DNA of 64,000 nt from Geobacter sp. DSM 9736. GTDB lineage: Bacteria; Desulfobacterota; Desulfuromonadia; Geobacterales; Geobacteraceae. The notes beneath the pieces are model-generated. The model saw nothing but the letters and a program-made list of their open reading frames with translations. It had not been told where the DNA came from and did not search any database. A program made the translations under genes and the position numbers. Every line of letters starts with the position of its first letter. Position 1 is the first letter of the stretch. Below, piece by piece: positions 7,604-48,656 of this stretch. Where the stretch lies: the NCBI RefSeq assembly GCF_900187405.1, contig NZ_LT896716.1:62001-126000 (forward strand), written 5' to 3'.

Positions 7604-7738
7604 GTTGTTCAAAAATAGCCAGATCGTTGCACCCGCAGAACGCCCCGCGGAGGCGTAGTACCCTCTGGGGCATAAACAGCGCTACGCCGCACAAGGTGGC
7701 TTTCGAGGACGGCGGCGAGATGGGTGTTTTTCAACAAC
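7604..7738 (-). repeat. family A stop-codon-linked hairpin element, copy A1
   Basis: Read on the minus strand it begins one base after the ppiD stop (7740-7742) with GTTGTTGAAAAACA and ends with TTTTTGAACAAC, the complementary arm. The core GGCGTAGCGCTG is extended by about 23 bases (GTTTATGCCCCAGAGGGTAC) compared with most copies. It lies between ppiD and purC and could shape the 3' end of the ppiD message or the purC leader. Confidence 0.85.
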
Positions 7739-7739
7739 C

Positions 7740-9320
7740 TCAGTCGGCCAGAAGCGCCTGGTTGATCTCTATCTTCGCCTTCGCCTTCAGATCCTTGAGC
7801 CACTTGTCCATCGCCTCCTGCTGTTTCTTCGGCAGAAGCGATCGGGTTAACTGATCCTTCTGCTTCTGGAAATCCGCAGTACTGGCTGCTACGCGGTTCT
7901 TGAGCCTGACTGCATACCAGCGGTCGGCGACCTTGAAAGTTGTCTTTGCAACGGGTGCCGCACTGGTGAGATCGAACGCGGCTTCCATCAGGTCTGGGGA
8001 GGGGCCGATCTTGGGTACCACCGGATTTTTGTCGGAGTAGGAGAAAAGTCCGGTCTCCTGAACGGGAGCTCCTCCCTTGGCGAGCAGAGCCAGAGCATCT
8101 TCAGCTTTCTTCTTCGCAAGATCCCGTGCCTTTTCCTCGCGAGCGAGTTTCTCGACCTGTGTCCTTATCTGCGCAAGGGGCGGGACTGCAGCAGGCTTTC
8201 TCTCCTTTACCTTCACTATGTAGATGCCTTTAGGAGTCTCGATGGGCCCTCCCAGTTCACCCTGCTTGAACGTGAAGGCCCGCTTGAGAAGCTCGGTCTC
8301 GCCGGCGAGTTGCGCGGGAGGGGTCGAGGCTGAGAAGAGCGGCGTCTCGGAGACGGCTATGCCTAGAGATTTCGCGGCGGCGGCAATGTCTCCGGATTTC
8401 AGGTTCTTGTTTGTGGCGTCGGCAGCCAGCTCGTAAGCCTTTGTGGCGCCCTTGGCGCGCTGGGCGTCTGCCCGTGCACGGTCTTTTACTTCGGCAAAAG
8501 GCAGTATCCCGCCCTTTCCCTGGTATCGGTCGATGTTCTTCTGGTAGTAGGCCTGCGCTTCCTCATCGGTTACCGTGACCCCAGCAGCCACCTTGCCCGG
8601 ATCCACCAGAGCATACTGAAGGCTCACCTGCTCCGGAGTCTTGAACTGCTCCGGGTGCGCCTGGATATACGCATTGAGATCCTGATCGGTGAGTTTTACC
8701 TCCCCGGCCACGTCGGCGGGTGCGAAGGAAATGAACTGGAGTTCCACCGTGTCATTCTGTTTCTTGAAGGCCTGCAGTGCCTCTTCATCCGTCACCTTGA
8801 CCTGGTTCTTTACCTGCTCCCTGGCTTTCTTGACGAGCAGTTCCTCCTTCTGCGCATCCTCGAATTGGGTCGGGGTCATGCGGCTGGACCTGAGGATCTG
8901 CTGGTAGAGCTGGAAGTCGAAGGCGCCGTTCTTCTGAAAGGAGGGAACGGCGGCAACTGCGGCGGCGATCTCGTCCTTGCTCACCTTGATTCCCATCCGC
9001 TTCGCTTCCTTTCGGACGAGAGCCGTCTCGATCAGGTTGTCGAGGGCCGTTTTCTTGATCCCCAGCTGCTTCTCCATTTCGGGGGTCAGGGATCGCCCGT
9101 AGATCTGATCATAAATGTTGCGCAGTCGGTAGTAGCTGTTCTGGAAAGCCTCCAGCGAGATCTTTTCTCCGTTCACTTTGGCTGCGTAGGAGGCTCCCCC
9201 CACCGACGTTCCTCCTTCTCCCCAGACGAGGAAGATGGTGCCGATAAAGGAAAGGACGATTATGCCGAAGACTACCTTGATGATGACTGACTGCTTGTAC
9301 TTTCTCATTATGCCGAGCAT
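7740..9320 (-). CDS. ppiD: PpiD/SurA-type membrane-anchored periplasmic peptidyl-prolyl isomerase
   Basis: This is a 526-residue protein with a short cytoplasmic N terminus (MLGIMRKYKQS), one membrane anchor at about residues 13-35 (VVFGIIVLSFIGTIFLVWG), and a large periplasmic part. The segment at about 45-200 is a SurA_N-type chaperone domain (KVNGEKISLEAFQNSYY, VSKDEIAAAVAAVPSF). A parvulin-like rotamase region lies around 230-370 (TPEQVSLQYALVDP through PIETPKGIYIVKVKERKP), followed by a Lys/Ala-rich C-terminal chaperone part. PpiD helps proteins leaving the Sec translocon to fold. It is divergent from mreB and upstream of purC. The exact cis-trans isomerase activity of such forms is often weak or absent. 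Confidence 0.85.
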   Translation of the reverse strand: MLGIMRKYKQSVIIKVVFGIIVLSFIGTIFLVWGEGGTSVGGASYAAKVNGEKISLEAFQNSYYRLRNIYDQIYGRSLTPEMEKQLGIKKTALDNLIETALVRKEAKRMGIKVSKDEIAAAVAAVPSFQKNGAFDFQLYQQILRSSRMTPTQFEDAQKEELLVKKAREQVKNQVKVTDEEALQAFKKQNDTVELQFISFAPADVAGEVKLTDQDLNAYIQAHPEQFKTPEQVSLQYALVDPGKVAAGVTVTDEEAQAYYQKNIDRYQGKGGILPFAEVKDRARADAQRAKGATKAYELAADATNKNLKSGDIAAAAKSLGIAVSETPLFSASTPPAQLAGETELLKRAFTFKQGELGGPIETPKGIYIVKVKERKPAAVPPLAQIRTQVEKLAREEKARDLAKKKAEDALALLAKGGAPVQETGLFSYSDKNPVVPKIGPSPDLMEAAFDLTSAAPVAKTTFKVADRWYAVRLKNRVAASTADFQKQKDQLTRSLLPKKQQEAMDKWLKDLKAKAKIEINQALLAD

Positions 9321-9567
9321 ATGGAGAAGCTCCTTCGGAGAGATTGAGAGGCGGCAACGAGCCCGGTGAGCGGTGCGGTCGGAGTGGTGGTCATCCGGGA
9401 CAACGAGTTGGACATACTATTCTATTTCCCCCTCAAAAGCAACAATAACGTCGGTCGGGGAGGGTGGGGAAATGGGCCGGGGTGACCTGTCATGCGACGG
9501 GGGAGCAGTGCGGTGAGAGGGCAGATGTAGGTGCTGAAAAAGACGAGTGTAGCGCCTATTTATAGCT

Positions 9568-9596
9568 TGCAACTATGGTAGCATTTTGATAAACAT
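9568..9596 (+). promoter_or_regulatory. possible sigma-70 promoter of mreB
   Basis: In the 305-bp divergent region between ppiD and mreB, TTGCAA (9568-9573) is separated by 17 bases from TAAACA (9591-9596), about 30 bases before the mreB start. The -10 match is weak. The mreB ribosome-binding site AAGGAG lies at 9616-9621. I see nothing else in this region apart from the ppiD upstream sequence. Confidence 0.35.
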
Positions 9597-46491: not shown

Positions 46492-48078
46492 TCAGGTGCT
46501 CCTGAAACGTGTTTCCCACGGCTTTTCCGCCGGGTCCGCCCCGATTCCGTGGTCGCCGTTGCCGGCGGCGTGGGTGAGGATCCTGAATATTGTTTCTGCC
46601 TCTTCGGCAGCGCCTATGGCGGCGGCGATCTCTTCCGCTGCTTCTGCACGACCGGAAGAACGGAGGTGAGAGAAAGCCTTCAGTTGCAGTTCGAGCACGG
46701 TGCCTGCAGCCTTCTTTCCCGCCTCTACCCCAGGCTGGTGATAGGCGTTGATGTTGACGAGAGATGCGTAGAGGCCGACGGCCCTCTCGTAGAGCGCGAT
46801 AAGAACCCCCACTGCCTGCGGATCGAGCTTGTCTATAGTGATGGTCACCGATTCGCGTCCCTTCTCGTAGAGCGCCCTGCGTGTTCCGAGAAAGAAGCCG
46901 AGGAGATAGTCGCCGCTCGTGGTATCGGGCTCCACAGCCATCGAGGACCTCTGACGGTCCTTCACCACTTCGATGAAGGTGACGAAGAAGTTGTGAACCC
47001 CTTCACGGAGCTGCTGGACATAGGCGTGCTGGTCGGTGGAGCCCTTGTTGCCGTAGACGGAAATACCCTGGTTGACTGTGGCGCCGCTCCGATCCTTTTC
47101 CTTGCCGAGGGATTCCATGATCAACTGCTGGAGGTAGCGGGAAAAGAGGAGCAGCCGGTCCTTGTACGGGAGAATGACCATGTCGCGCTTTCCGGTTCCG
47201 CCGGTGCCGTGGTACCACATGAGGGCCAGCAGTGCGGCCGGATTGGCTCGGGTCTCGGTGCGCCGGGTGATCTCGTCGCAAAGCTTCGCTCCCCGGAGCA
47301 GCGCCTCGACGTCAATCCCCTGGAGAGCCGCCGGCAGCAGTCCCACGGCAGAGGTCTCCGAGGTCCGTCCTCCGACCCAGTCCCACATGGGGAAGCGTGC
47401 AAGCCACCCCTCGCTGACTGCGGTCCGGTCGAGCTCACTCTCCTGCCCGGTCACTGCCACCGCATGTTTCGGAAATGGTATGCCTGCGGCTTCGAAGGCT
47501 AGTTTGACTTCGAGCATCCCGTTTCGCGTCTCCTTCGTCCCTCCGCTCTTGGAGATGACGATGACGAGCGTTTCCGCAAGGCTCTCTCCGAGCTCTCCCA
47601 GCACACGGTCCATGCCGTCGGGATCGGTGTTGTCTAAGAAATACGGTTTGAGCGGGTCTGCGGGTGTGCCGAGGGCATCGGCTACGAACTGCGGGCCCAG
47701 CGCGGAGCCGCCGATGCCGATTATGAGCATCCTGGTGAATTTCCGTCCGGCTGGTGTCCTGAAAGTGCCTGCGTGAATGCCTGCTGCGAAATCGCGAACC
47801 GCCCGGAGGGTGAAATCTATCTCGGCTGAAATACGCCCGTCGGGGGCGAGAGAGGGGTTCCGGAGCCAGTAGTGCCCGACCATTCGGCCTTCGTCAGGGT
47901 TTGCGATGGCGCCCTTTTCCAGTTCCTTCATCTCCCTGAAGGCCTGCTGCATCCGCGGCTCCATCTCCGCGAGAAAGGAATCGGAAAAGTTCATCCGGCT
48001 GATATCAAGGGAGAGGCCGACCTCCCGGTTTACGCACAGATATTTCTTGTAACGCTCCCACAGCTGCAGGCTGTCCAT
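46492..48078 (-). CDS. pgi: glucose-6-phosphate isomerase
   Basis: This 528-residue enzyme interconverts glucose 6-phosphate and fructose 6-phosphate. Key blocks are [17 protein letters not shown] near residue 120, [16 protein letters not shown] near 180, the catalytic-Glu region [19 protein letters not shown], and [19 protein letters not shown] near 345 with the conserved His. The length falls in the usual 450 to 550 range. It is the first gene of a pgi-threonine aldolase pair. Confidence 0.97.
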
Positions 48079-48177
48079 GGTTCCTCCCGTTCGGTGATTT
48101 CAGAAAGTGGTACCACGTAATTGTTCCTTAATCAAGTTTCATTGGCGTACGACTCCCTGTTGGGGTGCCGTCGTGAT

Positions 48178-48355
48178 GAGGGAGGCGGTGGAGTTCCTTC
48201 CGTTCCTGTCGTTCCTCGCTGCGGACCTGGATGGCTTTCCTTGTCCATCGAGGCACGCGCCTTCTGGTTGAGGGCTACAGTTATTGCCGGCGCCGGGCGC
48301 GCGTCCGCTGCCGCTAGTCACTTCCCTCCACTCCAGGAACTCCACCGCCTCCCTC
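48178..48355. repeat. 178-bp element with perfect 21-bp inverted ends (family C)
   Basis: Within the 579-bp gap upstream of pgi, GAGGGAGGCGGTGGAGTTCC (continuing to 48198) is exactly mirrored at 48335-48355. The interior has no credible gene. Its right part resembles bases 23591-23665. This is most likely a small non-autonomous repeat. The rest of the gap, apart from copy A8, shows nothing I can name. Confidence 0.65.
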
Positions 48356-48516
48356 TTTGTAATGGTTTAGGTGCTCGTCCGTCTAAGTCAACGGTCCAGA
48401 GGCTAATGTCGTGGCTTCGGGAGAGAACGGCGGAGCCGCAGCGGCAGATGTACGCGGACTATCCATTCACATGTGATGTCGGTGGTGAGCTTCTCTAGCA
48501 GGCAGGTGAAAAACTG

Positions 48517-48656
48517 AGGTTGTTCAAAAACAGATAGATGGTCGCACCCGCAGAAAGCCCCACGGAGGCGTAGTACCCTCTGGGGCATAAACAGCGCTAC
48601 GCCGCACACGGCGGCTTTCGAGGAACGGCGGCCAGATGACTGTTTTTCAACAACCT
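48517..48656 (-). repeat. family A stop-codon-linked hairpin element, copy A8
   Basis: Read on the minus strand it begins 1 base after the stop of the radical SAM gene (48658-48660) with AGGTTGTTGAAAAACAG and ends CTGTTTTTGAACAACCT. The core carries the same 23-base extension as A1 (GTTTATGCCCCAGAGGGTAC). It is the only feature of note in the right part of this gap. Confidence 0.86.

Follow-up and report, generated by a model that had tools for sequence, protein, structure and literature searches.

Eight hairpin elements in a 64,000-nucleotide stretch of DNA from Geobacter sp. DSM 9736 (the whole of which is hereafter referred to as the window) probably belong to a REP/MITE-like family of mobile hairpins that has been partly domesticated in the form of intercistronic and 3'-UTR mRNA hairpins. 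They appear to form a branch of a family that ranges over the Geobacterales, whose members are imperfect hairpins of 115-140 nt sharing the same tip. When a covariance model of 31 copies was searched over the 3.96-Mb single-contig source genome (G000), it identified about 100 copies, and copies were found with a patchy spread in 17 of 28 relatives belonging to several families of the order.

All the eight window copies (family A) are matched by the model, with E-values from 2.6e-41 to 1.7e-9, and align as an imperfect hairpin of 117-140 nt with outer arms that are variable yet complementary and with a shared tip, GGCGTAGCGCTGCTACGCC. Each lies in sense to the gene just ended and its stem begins 0-3 nt past the stop codon, a distance within the reach of a terminating ribosome. 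Copy 1 (7604..7738, minus strand; 121 bits), which carries a type ii tip with the TGTTTATGCCC..GGGTAC insert, lies 1 nt past the stop of a PpiD/SurA-type peptidylprolyl isomerase gene (7740-9320, minus strand). Copy 2 (10673..10807, plus strand; 40.7 bits), with degenerate arms and an 18-nt insertion, begins 3 nt past the stop of mreB (9626-10669, plus strand), and copy 3 (29555..29671, plus strand; tip type i, 139 bits) 0 nt past that of an ABC-2 permease gene (28751-29554, plus strand). The stop of a gene for a PuuR-like cupin regulator is followed after 2 nt by copy 4 (34789..34910, plus strand; outer stem GGGACGCGAG/CTCGCGTCCC) and that of a carboxynorspermidine synthase-like gene (35095-36291, plus strand) after 1 nt by copy 5 (36293..36413, plus strand; outer stem GGAGCGCGA/TCTCGCGCTCC), while copy 6 (38671..38791, plus strand) lies 2 nt past the nspC stop. 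Copy 7 (40937..41059, minus strand), the highest-scoring window copy with 146 bits, is located directly past the stop of a PAS histidine kinase gene (41060-42886, minus strand) and copy 8 (48517..48656, minus strand; tip type ii, 116 bits) 1 nt past the stop of the arsS radical SAM gene (48658-49617, minus strand). The first-pass annotation had described the same eight copies in these places, except that it began copy 2 at 10676 instead of 10673. Adjoining copy 8 are about 440 bases without a called gene (48075-48516), which contain the inverted repeat GGAGGCGGTGGAGTTCCT / AGGAACTCCACCGCCTCC.

Two further hairpins of the window share the family A tip on other arms and are referred to as family B. 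The first (34956..35075, minus strand; arms GCGGCGACAGATTTGCG/CGCAAATATGGCGTCGC, tip CGTAGCGCTGCTACG) closely precedes the start of the carboxynorspermidine synthase gene (35095) and the second (38855..38976, minus strand; same tip) that of speA (38989). The family A model also matches both of them weakly, in the antisense orientation (34967-35064 and 38894-38939). They lie in the norspermidine/arginine decarboxylase region of a polyamine cluster (34229-40899; PuuR-like regulator, carboxynorspermidine synthase-like gene, CorA, nspC and speA), which carries three family A and two family B hairpins in all.

The tips fall into three types, namely i (GCGTAGCGCTGCTACGC), ii (with a 21-nt TGTTTATGCCC..GGGTRC insert) and iii (GCGTAYYTCCAGTACGC). 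Tips have been exchanged between orthologous copies with the arms nearly unchanged (L173/L174, L176/L177, L193/L217, L195/L215, L190/L200 and L194/L199) and differ in seven of the eight shared pairs. Nested insertions near the tip were observed in three genomes (L130 at 386681 in G000, L211 in G008 and L280 in G118). A small hairpin (CAATTTCAC-GTGAAATTG or ACTTTTCAC-GTGAAAAGT, for example) is present in each of them and suggests that the loop receives insertions of a second module.

Genes around all the copies were called with a purpose-built small coding-potential model, by which individual borders are approximate. The left end of the element lies at most 12 nt past a sense stop in 59 of the 102 copies of the source genome and at most 30 nt from the start of an antisense gene in 22, with 21 copies elsewhere. 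Under a null model of random position and orientation within the observed intergenic gaps, 8.5±2.6 left ends are expected at most 12 nt past a stop (maximum 19 in 5000 simulations) and 57 of 100 are observed; 20 are observed 13-26 nt from an antisense start, with an expectation of 6.2±2.3. The stem starts 0-3 nt past the stop in 32 of 40 copies. The right end, which displays no boundary preference, abuts a stop in only 2-5 of 48. Stop adjacency recurs in other genomes (11 of 14 copies in G008 and 14 of 15 in G014). The first-pass annotation had held that random insertion could hardly explain the placement and had proposed a genome-wide tabulation of distance and orientation; the tabulation bears out the non-random position at stops, but not the claim that the elements always face in sense. 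Beyond the window the orientation is mixed, with a sense stop on the left side in 71 of 102 copies and the remaining 31 facing the start of an antisense gene, with 13-26 nt between its start codon and the left end in most of them; within the window, too, the two family B hairpins are weaker antisense relatives. Tandem gene gaps retain a mild sense bias (50 sense and 29 antisense copies, p=0.024). The placement rule is thus that the left end abuts a gene boundary, rather than that a 3' end is followed in sense, and the eight of eight in the window are a local sample of this broader rule.

A purely selfish miniature element, devoid of function and with a preference for YTRR-like sequences, would meet such sequences in stop codons as well as in the complement of ribosome-binding sites, and its conservation at certain loci would reflect recent or repeated insertion into hot spots. 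The left flanks of both position classes fit a loose YTRR, and TAG stops are enriched next to the copies (50% vs 31%, p=0.008), both of which favour this reading. An asymmetric YTRR target together with selection may account for the orientation and polarity. It does not account for the strength of the placement bias, and YTRR sequences occur too often for them to put 57% of the copies at most 12 nt from a stop. We consider a selfish element of this kind possible but unlikely, and the evidence on insertion and conservation given below bears on it from both sides.

The elements are mobile, since a clean empty site is present in the same genome and many sites are lacking in sister species; the empty sites prove insertion or loss. 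The former is provided by a 200-bp repeat family of seven copies (682397-682628 and six other places in the source genome) that contains GGATCTTTCTTTGCGTACTTTCTTTGGAGCC and serves as a target for the hairpin element; two of its copies carry the element and five do not, with the clean junction GAATG[element]TAATGG. All the seven sites of G018 examined are empty in the same-genus G021. Between G008 and G014, eight sites are common, about ten are filled in one genome only and three hold different elements, one of these in the opposite orientation; the occupation of one slot by unlike elements in two sister species is in keeping with a selfish element. Two sites have an overlapping ATGA stop/start when empty; when filled, they retain the stop, and the element and a new ribosome-binding site follow. 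The element itself mostly does not supply the stop codon, as orthologues without an element end at the identical codon; an exception is L112, into which the reading frame of the gene continues. A target-site duplication is suggested, short of significance (p about 0.05-0.07), with at most 2 bp at the empty site of the 200-bp repeat. The longest form of the element has MITE-type terminal inverted repeats of 38 nt, with CAGGTTGTTGAAAACGAAGTTTCAGCGYAGCTAAAAAC at both ends in L117 and at one end only in the other copies, and this form also favours the selfish reading.

Several candidate partners for this mobility were considered and rejected. The end motif AGGYTGTTGAAAAAC is almost confined to the elements, and no transposon or transposase with matching ends was present among the pattern matches; the other places with this motif that were examined hold no transposase with such ends, so that an insertion sequence partner was discarded. 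A scan of the genome collection for the long inverted repeat detected the same short elements in Geobacter MAGs without an autonomous partner, and the remaining matches were unrelated repeats in beta-proteobacteria and others. RAYT genes were likewise discarded as partners. All the five Y1_Tnp genes of the source genome are more than about 4 kb away from the nearest copy, the element motif is absent from the three loci inspected (which comprise four of the five genes), there is no copy-number correlation, and G014 and G021 have copies and no Y1_Tnp match.

At some loci, elements have been retained from one bacterial family to another. The arrangement murA, element, hisG occurs in seven genomes of two families, with the same subtype 1 nt past the murA stop. 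Leaving out the copy of G118 (tip rearranged, 84%), the identity of this element between families is 91-95%, compared with 76-86% for the adjacent coding DNA and 50-70% for the ten-base spacer. Seven of the best matches to the arm of this subtype in 141 genomes are at murA/hisG. Copies of one subtype at an identical nucleotide position in two families, with a slower evolution than the adjoining coding DNA, and the concentration of the best arm matches at a single locus argue against a purely selfish element. Elements common to G008 and G014 have arms 92-95% identical, with 91% for the upstream coding DNA and 83% for the downstream DNA (mostly intergenic). Other slots with elements in more than one genome include argF/argG (four genomes of three genera), radical-SAM/hemE (G000, G008 and G014), carA (three genera), the PuuR-like regulator of copy 4 (orthologues in G014 and G008 with elements of other subtypes) and nspC of copy 6 (filled in G008, empty in G014). 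As some conserved slots have different subtypes in different species, they could be hot spots rather than cases of retention.

The stem is also maintained. The consensus fold of the alignment (A2) under-pairs the outer stem because the subtypes misalign there, and a direct test of arm complementarity was therefore used. The outer arms vary yet stay complementary, at 74% compared with 54±2% for shuffled partners, and double changes are seen in the stems within the carA and argF slots, although the elements of the argF slot may have been replaced rather than diverged, which makes the count of double changes weaker evidence. The conservation across families implies a constraint on the element.

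A mobile family partly domesticated at gene borders thus remains the preferred reading. Copies are gained and lost between relatives, insert cleanly with the left end to a gene boundary (in sense after a stop, or antisense just upstream of a ribosome-binding site) and at some loci are found as the same copy across genera or families with the stem kept. The elements would have spread as non-autonomous REP/MITE-like units moved by a putative enzyme. In the mRNA, copies directly after a stop, tolerated or favoured there, may act as a hairpin bordering the upstream cistron on its 3' side; by analogy with REPs, such a hairpin might block 3'-5' decay and/or slow the terminating ribosome, and neighbouring operon genes could thereby be expressed at separately set levels. 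A more far-reaching version, in which a hairpin whose insertion is directed to translation boundaries (stop codons in sense, ribosome-binding sites in antisense) became a fixed intercistronic RNA, slower in its evolution than coding DNA and with the tip module as the only part exchanged, is put forward tentatively and is itself rather doubtful.

Transcription would not usually be ended by the hairpin. That a mobile repeat here carries an intrinsic terminator of transcription is improbable, despite the strong stems, the position after stop codons and the CTGAGTTTTTCAAC that often follows the GTTG subtype, as the T tract of this subtype is about 5 nt away instead of directly at the stem and the other subtypes lack a T run. 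Many copies lie between the genes of operons (e.g. argF/argG, murA/hisG) and hence the elements are not general terminators; moreover, separate canonical terminators occur before or after copies, and about one-third of the copies are antisense, mostly in 5' regions. The first-pass annotation had suggested either a mobile repeat or a 3'-UTR structure with a role in RNA stability, termination or anti-termination; the empty sites support the former and the cross-family conservation the latter, while termination or anti-termination is unlikely as a general role on account of the operon-internal copies.

Among the papers searched, the tip sequence had a single match, the genome paper of Geobacter metallireducens, which in 2009 recorded 24 'predicted short RNA elements' (Gmet_R1005 = GSU0160.1 family; PMC2700814), a multicopy, intergenic family with the identical palindromic tip GRCGTAGCGCTGCTACGCC; the likeness is known from the tip. 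That paper presents them as RNAs situated in 5' regions, those of lysine/arginine genes for example, with one element between dapB and dapL in two species; the portions of its main text and legends consulted make no mention of a position next to stop codons, of empty sites, of tips or of constraint between families (PMC2700814). The supposition of its annotators, a cis-acting leader RNA that regulates amino-acid or polyamine genes, agrees with the lysine/arginine genes mentioned there and with copies adjoining arg, lys, his and norspermidine genes. It is nevertheless very improbable here, as mreB, arsS, a kinase, gspG-like and further genes are neighbours as well, the position is tied to the preceding stop codon and not to the next gene, and no Rfam covariance model matches the element. 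A DNA-level site, such as a cruciform or a binding site for a nucleoid or replication protein, would suit the near-palindromic form with its conserved tip and the occurrence in either orientation to genes, but can hardly be entertained, as the strict relation to stop and start codons would not be expected of it and the arm covariation fits RNA too.

The first-pass annotation knew of no named family with this behaviour, which holds for Rfam but not for the tip, recorded in 2009, or for the behaviour, which has precedents in REPs at stops. REP/BIME/REPIN sequences are likewise high in copy number, extragenic, palindromic and often at most 15 nt from a stop, and GTAG REPs often supply the TAG stop (PMC3733652, PMC12306157). 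In work cited in PMC12306157, REPs are described as stabilising upstream mRNA and, when at most 15 nt from a stop, as stalling ribosomes, and deletion of 3'-UTR REPs as shortening the mRNA half-life. The present elements agree with REPs in their location near stop codons and were not assigned to them on grounds of size, foot and RAYT: REPs are 20-40 nt with a GTAG or CGTC foot, whereas the elements have 115-140 nt, a shared tip, variable arms and a variable foot, and the RAYT (Y1_Tnp) gene flanked by copies that accompanies REP/REPIN has no adjacent counterpart here. The enterobacterial ERIC (127 bp) and Ypal (168 bp) are intergenic, transcribed, long imperfect hairpins of similar size; for ERIC, an influence on mRNA stability that depends on orientation has been reported, and for Ypal, empty sites in relatives (PMC2229807). 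The host group is different, no TA-terminal rule was seen here, and the left-end polarity at stops and starts distinguishes the present elements. Correia/NEMIS and RUP MITEs are also small hairpins with terminal inverted repeats (PMC2229807), whereas no related transposase and no clear target-site duplication were found here. Integron attC sites were rejected, the GTTGTTG end being a misfit to the GTTRRRY / RYYYAAC core sites and lacking in other subtypes, and the neighbours being chromosomal housekeeping genes rather than cassettes. The left-end polarity, the cross-family constraint and the tip swapping are apparently new.

The elements offer a concrete, testable case of a spreading repeat turned into a part of gene architecture. 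About 60 genes of one genome end in the same hairpin, and the natural filled and empty pairs in sister species allow the effect of a hairpin 0-3 nt past the stop to be measured gene by gene. The conservation at murA/hisG raises the question of what an intercistronic hairpin does that selection guards above the adjoining coding DNA.
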